Position numbers and translations under genes: made by a program
The notes under the pieces: generated by a model
The model's database searches: none
Told to the model about the DNA's origin: nothing
What the model saw: only the letters and a program-made list of their open reading frames with translations
Shown here: in pieces, positions 2,761-22,771 of the stretch
Position numbering within the stretch: the stretch's first letter is position 1
How the letters are laid out: each line of letters begins with the position of its first letter
IMG/VR virus record: IMGVR_UViG_3300020463_000126
Span: 1-24,728 of that record
Source: a virus
Direction: 5' to 3' (one strand)
Length of the DNA: 24,728 nt

Positions 2761-3898
2761 TTACGAAAGCCCGACGATTTTATGTGAATCAGCGAAACTG
2801 ACATGCTTGACCGAGACTTCCCCAACCAGCAGATGACGATCATTGTCGCCCTGCTTGGCAAGCAAAGTACGTGTGAACGGACGTAGCGTTACAGTCCGGA
2901 ACATGCTCGGGTCAATCAACAGAGCTTGTGTAGACAAAAGCTCTCTATTTAAGACCACCCTGTACGTTCCGAAGGGGGTCACGAGTACCTCAATGACGTT
3001 GACGAAGGTAGTTGTGTCGTCATTAAAGGTCCGTGTCTTGTTGGCTGCCGTAGCGAACCCAGCGACCAAGAGGCTGTCTGCCGGCTTGATCATGAGGGTG
3101 TCGGGATTGGATCCGGCTGTGTACGCTGCTTGACCGGCTGTGTTAACAGCGGCCTCGGTCAGCGGGTCAGTGGCGTTGGATCCAGCATCGGTCGAACCGG
3201 TGATCATCTGATCAACAGAAGCCATTTCACGTGCGGTCGAGCTGTTACCAGCTACGGCTGCGTTTGATACGCCAACCATTGCACGTTCATAGTCTTTCTT
3301 GATCGACTTTAGCTCTTTCGCCAGTTGATACGCCGTTTCAGCAGCGCGGCCATAGGTCTTGATAACGTCAGACGTAGCCGAGACATTGATAGTCTTGGAC
3401 ATGATCTGGCAGCTATTTGACCTGGTCGTCGGTGTGGTCAGCGTGTCATCGGATGCCTGGAACCCTTCTATCTCAGCGTTAGCGGCTGAGGCAGTTAGAG
3501 CATCTTCGATCCATTCGAAGGTACGGGCGTTGACTGTCTCGTTACGGACGAGACTGTGGAAGGGTGTGTCGGAGGGAGAGATATCGTAAATGCATAATGT
3601 TCACTACAGCGCGTTAGACTGTAGCCGGCTTTCGCCAGCTTATGATTACTCATAAGATCGGATCATATCTTCACCCTGGTATAACCAGGGGCAGTGCGCT
3701 TCGGACGACTTCGCCCTACTCTAAAATAGATGATCTCTGAACCTTCCCCGTGAGGGGCTTGGCTGCTGATTGTCCCAGAGGGATGTCCCAGCAATTCACA
3801 CTGTTTGTTTAGACGGATTACTCCGAATGGACACCAGACTTAATGTCCTCGACACTTTCTGCGACCCCTACCTGGTCGTAAGTGGTTAGTACTGCCAT
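2761..3898 (-). CDS. Major capsid protein, SU10/DUF5309-like, interrupted by a group I intron
   Basis: The gene is two exons: 3898-3843 (56 nt) and 3592-2761 (832 nt). Joined, they give 295 residues. Exon 1 starts MAVLTTYDQVGVAESVED, with AAGGA (3907-3911) upstream of the ATG. Exon 2 continues DISPSDTPFHSLVRNETVNA, FEWIEDAL, then NVSATSDVIKTYGRAAETAY, QLAKELKSIKKDYERAMVG and a beta-rich C-terminal domain ending HKIVGLS. The N-terminal Y-ISPxxTPF, the EWxED element and the TxxxSATxxVxxYGR/ELKxIKxDxE helix are the family pattern of HK97-fold capsid proteins of the SU10/DUF5309 type. Without splicing the frame hits a TAA after 26 codons. A reading from the internal ATG at 3402 would lack the N-terminal arm and first part of the fold. 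The gene follows the scaffold gene, as expected. The junction codon becomes ATC (Ile) inside the conserved N-terminal arm. Confidence 0.88.
3593..3842 (-). ncRNA. Group I intron (subgroup IA-like) in the major capsid gene
   Basis: The 250-nt interruption folds by hand into a group I core. RNA positions count from 3842. P1: exon GGACAU pairs with GUGUCC (9-14), with U-G at the splice site. P2: CGGA/UCCG with a GUAA loop (18-29). P3: CAGUGUG (40-46)/CGCACUG (145-151). P4: UUGCUG (49-54)/CAGCAG (75-80). P6/P6a: around CCCC/GGGG (86-97). P7: GAUCAU (108-113)/AUGAUC (177-182). P7.1: CUAUU/AGUAG. P7.2: GGCG/CGUC. P8: CCCUGGU/ACCAGGG (153-169). P9: CUUAUGA/UCAUAAG with a GUAA loop. P9.1: CUGGC/GCCGG with a GAAA loop. 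P9.2: CUACAG/CUGUAG. Signature strings AAUUGCUGGGA, AAUCAGCAGCCAAG, GGUUCAGAG and GAAGAUAUGAUCC match P, Q, R and S. The intron ends in G at 3593. P10 is weak (2 bp). P7.1 and P7.2 point to subgroup IA. There is no internal ORF. Confidence 0.92.
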
Positions 3899-20860: not shown

Positions 20861-22771
20861 TCAATTAGTGAGATCGACCACCTCACAGCTATCACCGCTA
20901 CAAGCTAATGTCTGGCTGCTGGTGATTGCGTCCTCTCGGTCAAACTCCGAAAGTAGAGACCAAACGATATTATCAGGCATTTTATCAGTCAACTCTCGAA
21001 CTACAGTTTCTTCACATTCTTGATATGGAGCCTGTTGATAAGTGTGATTGTCTTGCGGCAGAAATGAGATCCCTGAGAGCAAATCGAAGTTGTCAAATAC
21101 CCAGGCTCCGACCTTCAACCAGTCGTCATCTCGGACACTGATAGTCACACTGGGCTTGTGTTCACACCAGTGGACCGCGTACTTCTTCCAGACCTCGAGC
21201 TGCTCAAGTGAAGACATCTCAGTCCTGGTCACCGCACCGGCTGGAGCCGTAATCGGGAAGCTAAACACAGTCGTGGTGTCGGGCTTCATTACACATGGTT
21301 CGGAAGGTACTCCCTGGTCGATTAGGAAGGCCGTGAGAGGGTCTTTATTGTCTGCTCGTACTGTCCGGACATAGTGAGCGCTGTGCCTTGCATGGATGCC
21401 GCTGGCGCTGTCTACAAGCTGCGAGACTGTGCCGGAAGGCTTCACACAAGTGATTGCCGTGCTTGGTTTGATCTTGAGATCCTTAGACATATTTATGTTT
21501 GCTGTAACAGCCACCTCTTTAAGACGCTCGAGCATCTCCGGATCCGGATTACTGGTCAGGTCATTGTCCATGATACCAGTCAGCGAGACACCCAATAGAC
21601 GCTCCTCAGCGGTGTTTGTTTCCCATCTGGACCTGAGATAAGGGAAGTATGTATAGCTGCTCTGAACCGTCCCCAGGACGCTAGCCAGGAAGACTTTCTC
21701 GGCTAATGTTTCCTCGGTGTCAGTTGCACGGACAACCACCTCTGTCAGATTACAGAACTGGTGAGGCCGAAGTATGATCTCGCTGCATGGGTTGGTTCCG
21801 AAGTCCCAGCCACTGTCCCGCCGGCCGATCTTTTCGACATGTTCTTTTGCAGCAGCTCGACTAAAGATGCCACGTTCACCGGACTTGCTTTCGACCAGCG
21901 CTTTCCATTCAGCCAGGAATGCTTCCATGTCCGGCTTGCTTGTGTAGCAGACGCTATTGTTAGCCAGCGCCATCTCTGGTCTAGCGTTCCACCAGTCACC
22001 TGATTTGGCTGAGCGCATCTTATCGTCTTGTAAGTTCGACAGGCTAATCATAGCTGACCGGCGAACACCACCAACTACCACGATCTCACCGATCTTGCAC
22101 ATCAAACTGTGACACTCGAACGGGGTCAGCGGCCTACCGGCAGCGCCCTTAAAGATATCCAGTGTGTATTGGAATAGCTGGTCCAGCGGCCCTGGTCCTG
22201 ATGCCCTGCCCCCGAATGTCTTCAGTCGGGCTCCGGCTGGTCTAATCCTTGATAGATCCCACTTGGGTATGTCACCAAGGTAAAGCATCGAGATGAGCTT
22301 CCGATAGCTCCTAGCCCAGCCTTCTTTGCTGTCCGGTACGACAATCACATCGTCACATTCTACCAGCTCGTCAGGGACCGCTGGCAGCTTACTGACCGCC
22401 TCACGTTCTACTGAGAAGCCGACACCGGTCCCACACAACAAGATGAACATGGCCTCATCGAAAGCCCTGGGGTGATCCACCGGAAGGTAGGAGCAATTAT
22501 AGATGCATGTGTTGTCTCGGTTAGCTGGAGCCCCTGCTGTCATGAGAGCTCTCATCGATGGCATGACCCGAAGGTCTAGGATCGCATCACGGAGCTGAGT
22601 AACCAGCTCTTTATGTTTCTTGCCGGAAAGAATAGGCCGGACAATGTTGTCGATATATCGGTCCACTGTCTCGTCCCAGGTCTCTCGGCGTTCGTCTTCT
22701 TCCCGCCACCTGGCATAGCGTGATAGTGCAATGAAGTTCTGGTAATCAGTGGGTAGGTAGTTATTCAACAT
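20861..22771 (-). CDS. nrdJ: Ribonucleotide reductase, class II (adenosylcobalamin-dependent), monomeric type
   Basis: The 636-aa enzyme reduces ribonucleotides to deoxyribonucleotides for phage DNA synthesis using coenzyme B12. The fingerprint is present. NCSYLP supplies redox Cys 93. FGTNPCSEIILRPHQFCNLT gives the active-site Asn 327, thiyl Cys 329, Glu 331 and redox Cys 340. KPSGTVSQLVDSASGIHARH is a substrate-phosphate loop. The C-terminal shuttle pair TLACSGDSCEV is Cys 624 and Cys 629 (C-x4-C, the spacing of Lactobacillus-type reductases). No small subunit or activase gene is next to it, consistent with class II. It is about 100 residues shorter than the Lactobacillus leichmannii enzyme. 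It overlaps the DUF3310 gene by 11 nt. Choice of a triphosphate rather than diphosphate substrate is inferred from the monomeric subfamily. Confidence 0.92.
   Translation of the reverse strand: MLNNYLPTDYQNFIALSRYARWREEDERRETWDETVDRYIDNIVRPILSGKKHKELVTQLRDAILDLRVMPSMRALMTAGAPANRDNTCIYNCSYLPVDHPRAFDEAMFILLCGTGVGFSVEREAVSKLPAVPDELVECDDVIVVPDSKEGWARSYRKLISMLYLGDIPKWDLSRIRPAGARLKTFGGRASGPGPLDQLFQYTLDIFKGAAGRPLTPFECHSLMCKIGEIVVVGGVRRSAMISLSNLQDDKMRSAKSGDWWNARPEMALANNSVCYTSKPDMEAFLAEWKALVESKSGERGIFSRAAAKEHVEKIGRRDSGWDFGTNPCSEIILRPHQFCNLTEVVVRATDTEETLAEKVFLASVLGTVQSSYTYFPYLRSRWETNTAEERLLGVSLTGIMDNDLTSNPDPEMLERLKEVAVTANINMSKDLKIKPSTAITCVKPSGTVSQLVDSASGIHARHSAHYVRTVRADNKDPLTAFLIDQGVPSEPCVMKPDTTTVFSFPITAPAGAVTRTEMSSLEQLEVWKKYAVHWCEHKPSVTISVRDDDWLKVGAWVFDNFDLLSGISFLPQDNHTYQQAPYQECEETVVRELTDKMPDNIVWSLLSEFDREDAITSSQTLACSGDSCEVVDLTN

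Follow-up and report, generated by a model that had tools for sequence, protein, structure and literature searches.

Group I introns splice in two GTP-initiated steps. A major capsid gene interrupted by such an intron has been described in LittleE, a mycobacteriophage of Cluster J, and verified by RT-PCR and N-terminal sequencing (PMC3706429); the same paper cites a capsid-gene group I intron in Tuc2009. These precedents contradict a preliminary description of the DNA studied here, in which an intron in the capsid gene of such a phage was called unusual. A study of the Bastillevirinae asks why introns colonise nucleotide- and DNA-metabolism genes only (PMC11878797). Three introns in one gene of phage Twort were described by Landthaler and Shub in 1999 (cited in PMC6669764), and the Jug phages carry small group I introns (~206 nt), with metatranscriptomes supporting the splicing of 37 of 76 (PMC12363816).

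The locus analysed here lies in a stretch of viral DNA of 24,728 nucleotides (IMG/VR record IMGVR_UViG_3300020463_000126), hereafter the window. The major capsid protein (MCP) gene is located on the minus strand, where it directly follows the genes for scaffold, portal and terminase. Its frame, opened by the ATG at 3898, is read for 26 codons and ends at a TAA (3820-3818), which lies upstream of helix P3 and is the first stop met in frame when the message is unspliced; as the preliminary description had stated, the capsid frame resumes 250 nt on. The Rfam group I model RF00028 is matched at full length by positions 3852-3639 (-), with 74.9 bits and E 1.3e-17 in cmscan against a gathering score of 50 bits, and this is the sole Rfam match in the whole window. 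The intron, 250 nt long, occupies 3842-3593 (-), starts with UAAGU and ends in ...AUUAUG, the 3′ junction being ...AUUAUG/CAUUUAC with a terminal G (slashes mark splice sites). Its folding energy is 3.1 sd below that of dinucleotide shuffles. All three frames of the inserted stretch contain stops, which excludes an intein or an in-frame insertion. The early stops themselves carry no special signal as a selected feature, since frames often have them (89%).

When 3842-3593 is excised the exons join in frame, GAGGACAT/CATTTACGATATC, and the junction predicted for the spliced transcript is GAGGACAT/CATTTACG. Exon 1 (3843-3898, -) comprises 18 codons plus 2 nt, its 5′ splice site is preceded by GGACAU, and orthologous N-termini are found in more than 130 relatives. 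Exon 2 (2761-3592, -) includes the stop codon. The spliced product is a protein of 295 aa, MAVLTTYDQVGVAESVEDI-IYDISPSDTPF..., with SVEDIIYDISPSDTPF as exon-junction peptide; it matches PF17236 (SU10_MCP) over residues 5-291 of 295 (E 1.5e-69) and also phrog_1328, and it aligns end-to-end with uninterrupted relatives, of which more than 130 have the N-terminal arm in common. Three IMG/VR relatives (L001-L003) have an MCP uninterrupted at the window's intron site, with 85% amino acid identity, and the nearest intronless allele is 73% identical in nucleotides and 85% in amino acids. One of them, L003, has the exact empty site, GTCGAGGACAT/CATTTACGA, with no intron, and in it GTCGAGGACATCATTTACGA is unbroken and identical to the window's joined exons. 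Two other splice choices were considered. Excision of 3842-3602 is compatible with the frame, with P1 and with the U/...G/ rule, but adds TLC, which is found in no relative, and excision of 3837-3585 leaves no P1. The 3′ boundary at 3593 is the correct one because every intronless relative encodes EDI-IYDI or its equivalent. The group I intron proposed earlier for these positions, the full-length model match expected of it, the rejoining of the N-terminal arm and the alignment of the 295-aa product with its relatives are thus all borne out. Both the assignment to group I and the gene model are firm. Splicing is inferred without data from transcripts, proteins or in vitro assays; identity, boundaries and splicing taken together are nonetheless highly probable.

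The broken reading frame of the unspliced message could also be read as the sign of a decayed or misassembled gene, whose MCP would be absent or start downstream of the intron, and an internal ATG at 3402 does open a frame of 213 aa. A truncated capsid protein from that ATG was rejected, as it would be missing the conserved N-terminal arm. Intact, conserved exons flank an intron whose structure is conserved with covariation, and the same arrangement is found repeatedly in independent samples, which leaves decay or misassembly hardly tenable.

The secondary structure was analysed by aligning 23 distinct MCP introns, mapping the window's helices on the alignment and counting the pairs. Standard pairs occupy 93.4% of 1576 cells, both sides have changed in 50 of 75 pairs, and double changes occur in 286 cells, compared with 79 after shuffling. 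Pairing falls to 36-41% when the partner is shifted by one column; this control favours the window's structure, because the structure was taken from the window row, while the double changes are unaffected. P1 (3829-3848) is made up of the exon sequence GGACAUUA (3848-3841) and the internal guide UGGUGUCC (3836-3829), with a U.G pair at the splice site, and the P2 hairpin (3814-3825) is placed from the intron alignment. P3 (3692-3803) pairs CAGUGUG (3803-3797) with CGCACUG (3698-3692), with all cells paired (100%) and four pairs double-changed. P4 (3793-3788 with 3769-3764), also 100% paired and with double changes in 5 of its 6 pairs, encloses P5 (3783-3780 with 3776-3773) in the region 3764-3793, and P6 with P6a (3741-3763) follows with 97% of cells paired. 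The guanosine-binding helix P7 (3661-3735) joins GAUCAU (3735-3730) to AUGAUC (3666-3661) and is 97.8% paired. P7.1 (3729-3727 with 3723-3721) and P7.2 (3716-3712 with 3707-3703), together at 3703-3729, are paired in 88% and 94% of cells, respectively, every pair being double-changed. Pairing is poorest in P8 (3674-3690), at 72%, owing to length variation. The 3′ region (3604-3656) contains P9 (3656-3639; 99.4% paired), P9.1 (3638-3625, with a GAAA loop) and P9.2 (3624-3604; 100%), with many double changes in P9 and P9.2. Hence the helices listed from inspection of the letters alone (P1, P2, P3, P4, P6, P7, P7.1, P7.2, P8 and three hairpins after P7) hold, with P5 in addition, and a catalytic core from P3 to P9 with the P/Q/R/S elements is established by the full-length RF00028 match and by covariation in the 23 homologues. 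Since P7.1 and P7.2 covary, the intron is placed in subgroup IA, with P7.1/P7.2 between P7 and the 3′ strand of P3. The finer subgroup is presumably IA2, by analogy, only the general Rfam model having been applied.

Relatives were gathered from IMG/VR in three protein searches, whose queries were the spliced MCP and two relatives, and by scanning for the junction GACATTAAGTN{0,4}TGGTGTC. At least 190 MCP loci were obtained, 46 of them carrying inserts (the window included and some contigs represented twice); the proportion is biased by the junction scan and by one search in which only the best 80 loci were counted. In the individual protein searches, interrupted loci amounted to 17 of 67, 8 of the best 80 and 7 of 29. 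The inserts measure 240-261 nt, and representatives of every insertion site pass the RF00028 cut-off. Besides the window's, 32 further introns were mapped (33 in total), all with a U preceding the 5′ site, a terminal G and a spliced MCP in frame. They occupy at least eight positions of the orthologous gene: site A at codon 19 (the window and 14 other mapped introns), A2 at codon 23 (L042), A3 at codon 25/26 (L187), E at about codon 55 (again L187), D at codon 86 (L084, L196), B at codon 106/107 (L051, L066, L067, L084, L086), C at codon 222/223 (L044, L052, L055, L059, L062, L066, L067) and F at about codon 276 (L198). The site A boundaries of L071, L084 and L086 were set by hand from the shared GACAT/TAAGT junction. 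Three introns are present in the MCP gene of L084 (A, D and B) and two in those of L086, L066, L067 and L187. Several introns in one gene are rare, not unique, given the three of the Twort gene described by Landthaler and Shub. Six candidates (L074, L076, L078, L083, L085, L089) proved by frame and Rfam check to be chance matches to the junction pattern and not MCP introns. In L049 (2855-2875) an NN gap in the site B intron is followed by a piece of site C-like exon and intron, probably a scaffold misjoin.

Among 33 contigs of the clade, which total 1.0 Mb and many of which are about 40 kb long, 19 group I introns were found, and a comparison of coordinates with the loci places all of them in the MCP gene. 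Insertion at especially conserved residues was not significant (mean entropy 0.69 vs 0.80, p 0.18). No report of multi-site group I introns restricted to the MCP was found in the literature, which, as mostly non-subscription papers were available, is weak evidence of novelty. It is the population pattern around the window intron that is the new part, the ribozyme itself being of known class.

Presence and absence of the intron in near-identical alleles, the mark of a mobile intron, is observed in the relatives and not for the window's own nearest allele. Intron-plus and intronless exons are 99.0% identical in nucleotides in L044/L007, 98.3% in L055/L027 and 98.0% in L062/L033. A tree of 73 MCP proteins requires at least 19 switches between presence and absence of an intron, 11 at site A alone. 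Site A introns follow MCP relatedness (Mantel r 0.71), and therefore descent also contributes. The closest relative of the window intron is the one in L086 (77% identity; SH-aLRT 98, UFboot 92), while the window's nearest MCP relatives have no intron. The intron tree is only partly resolved, with weakly supported deep branches, and shallow groupings alone were used. Among these, the A2 intron is nested within the A introns with 92% UFboot; introns at B and at C, both cutting after CGU, are as similar across the two sites (76%) as within each (77-81%); and the A3 and E introns, both in L187 and both cutting after GCCU, group together (80%).

The exon and its guide change in concert. P1 pairs GGACAU with GUGUCC or AGACAU with GUGUCU at site A, and AAGUGU with GCAC or AAGCCU with GGGC at site D. 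Sites A and A2, four codons apart, both read GGACAT/CA and have the guide GUGUCC in both introns. The guide-pairing codons are always present in intron-bearing alleles, whereas intronless alleles often have alternatives, many of them synonymous: GACAT is found in 15/15 intron-plus vs 73/131 intronless alleles (Fisher p 4e-4), TACGT in 7/7 vs 46/131 (p 1e-3) and CTGCGT in 5/5 vs 22/131 (p 2e-4), relatedness being uncorrected in all three comparisons. Three pairs at site C and one at site A show an excess of exon differences beside the intron, as would be expected from co-conversion of flanking exon, and other pairs show none; within 50 nt of the insertion the differences in the site C pairs reach 3.5-3.9x the expected number, the 95th percentile of the control being 2.45.

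The 250-nt window intron does not code for a homing endonuclease, its longest open frame being 58 codons from stop to stop, and autonomous homing is left unexplained because it has none. The mode of spread is inferred. An endonuclease acting in trans, either free-standing and of a family other than those searched for or supplied by a co-infecting phage, might cut the intronless MCP gene, the intron then being copied with flanking exon. Such homing would account for the three site C pairs, near-identical and differing mostly at the insertion (3.5-3.9x), and agrees with the patchy distribution of introns on the MCP tree; collaborative homing has been described in other phages (PMC2988022, PMC3984707). 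Nevertheless, HNH_3, HNH, GIY-YIG and LAGLIDADG_1 had no match in the 33 related contigs, near-complete 40-kb intron-bearing genomes included, the His-Cys, EDxHD, Endo VII-like and PD-(D/E)XK families being outside the search. We give homing in trans slightly less than an even chance.

The failure to detect any of those four families is compatible also with reverse splicing at the RNA level, in which the excised intron RNA, directed by its internal guide, would insert at another matching site of the MCP mRNA, followed by reverse transcription and recombination into DNA. Guide and target are common to related introns that occupy different sites (A/A2, B/C, A3/E), the pattern expected from guide-directed ectopic insertion, and Hausner et al. 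is cited in its support. However, a promiscuous endonuclease of relaxed specificity could yield the identical pattern, no evidence of a reverse transcriptase lies behind this reading, and support for the deeper parts of the intron tree is weak. Reverse splicing is thus a possible but tentative explanation. Equally tentative is its extension, that in this marine phage clade group I introns free of endonucleases have the MCP gene as their dedicated niche and reach new positions in the same mRNA by guide-directed reverse splicing; if true, this would be a natural case of introns transposing at the RNA level within a protein-coding gene of a phage.

A regulatory function has also to be weighed. 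Splicing that responds to GTP level, temperature or translation could gate capsid production and confine it to late infection, as suggested by an intron placed early in the gene of the most abundant late protein, and a switch has been proposed for phage introns in nucleotide-metabolism genes (PMC11878797). The existence of near-identical relatives without the intron and the variable position within the gene speak against it; both are easier to reconcile with a tolerated insertion than with a conserved control. We regard a switch as improbable; most likely, by inference, the MCP introns are near-neutral selfish elements rather than regulators.

We propose the following model. The window RNA would self-splice from the late MCP transcript through two GTP-initiated transesterifications, the internal guide GUGUCC holding exon 1 (GGACAU) in P1 and the terminal G defining the 3′ splice site. 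Ribosomes entering the intron should meet the in-frame stop after 22 nt and halt ahead of the catalytic core, and therefore the capsid protein would be made only from spliced mRNA; this halt, the dependence on spliced mRNA and efficient splicing in infected cells are inferred without RNA data. The window element would be one of a population of endonuclease-less introns colonising the MCP gene in a marine phage clade. Recombination at conserved target codons would carry its members from phage to phage, whether a cleaving nuclease is provided in trans or none takes part, and occasional jumps would reach other MCP positions able to pair with the guide.

The term cobavirus-like, applied to this phage in the preliminary description, stands only for the replication genes, where ribonucleotide reductase (67% identity), polymerase A (35%) and exonuclease (30%) resemble those of cobavirus ICBM2. 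The MCP, portal, scaffold and TerL have no match in the ICBM2 genome, so that membership of the Cobavirinae, understood as sharing both replication and structural modules with ICBM2, is not supported; judged by its protein matches, the structural module is SU10-type. The B12-dependent ribonucleotide reductase lies at 20861-22771 (-), and the genome is mosaic. No cobavirus paper describing introns was found in the literature.

Other introns were noticed on the way. A group I intron ~65% like the window's is located in L091 (739-957, -), in an unrelated MCP family (phrog_3437, HTVC010P pelagiphage type) of which L214 provides an intronless allele encoding the same protein; its P1 fits GAUCU/CAAUGGGAUC, and its 3′ splice site is unresolved because the intron would end in A, not G. 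In Vibrio phage 1.232.O (L200; MG592596.1 6177-9285) the annotated MCP, which belongs to another family (phrog_1357), runs into a group I intron at 1355-1625 (83 bits), followed by an HNH gene and a likely unannotated C-terminal exon, ...SQNRIIKWTSAS; this is possibly a capsid intron in a cultured phage. In the Schitoviridae Escherichia phage ZQ2 (L203) and Shigella phage Moonfish (L207), a group I intron with an HNH gene splits the annotated phage RNA polymerase. In Rhizobium phage RHph_N3_13 (L202:1479-1696) a group I intron immediately precedes the annotated terminase large subunit, and the "hypothetical protein" before it may be terminase exon 1.

Gene callers will split or miss capsid frames that are unspliced, which matters for the use of MCP as a survey marker gene. 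With at least eight sites, one, two or three introns in a gene, dozens of naturally empty alleles and matched guide/target changes, the gain, loss and transposition of introns become testable within one short gene. LittleE resembles the window in that the intron lies in the major capsid gene, with a U before the 5′ site and a terminal G, but its intron is ~820 bp long with a LAGLIDADG-like frame, occupies a single site and belongs to a temperate siphovirus with a different capsid protein, whereas those of the window's clade are ~250 nt, lack an endonuclease and occupy at least eight sites. The introns of T4 td, nrdB and nrdD, of SPO1 pol and of the Bastillevirinae are of the same ribozyme class and also lie in conserved phage genes, though in those of nucleotide or DNA metabolism or terminase, often with endonucleases (PMC11878797, PMC2988022); confinement to the capsid gene contrasts with the question raised there on metabolism genes. 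The Jug phages are huge and have ~18 introns over many genes, with many endonucleases, while in the window's clade only the MCP is interrupted. Twort shares with this clade several group I introns within a single phage gene, but it is one phage, and the clade offers a population in which MCP genes hold one, two or three introns (three in L084) and many alleles are empty.
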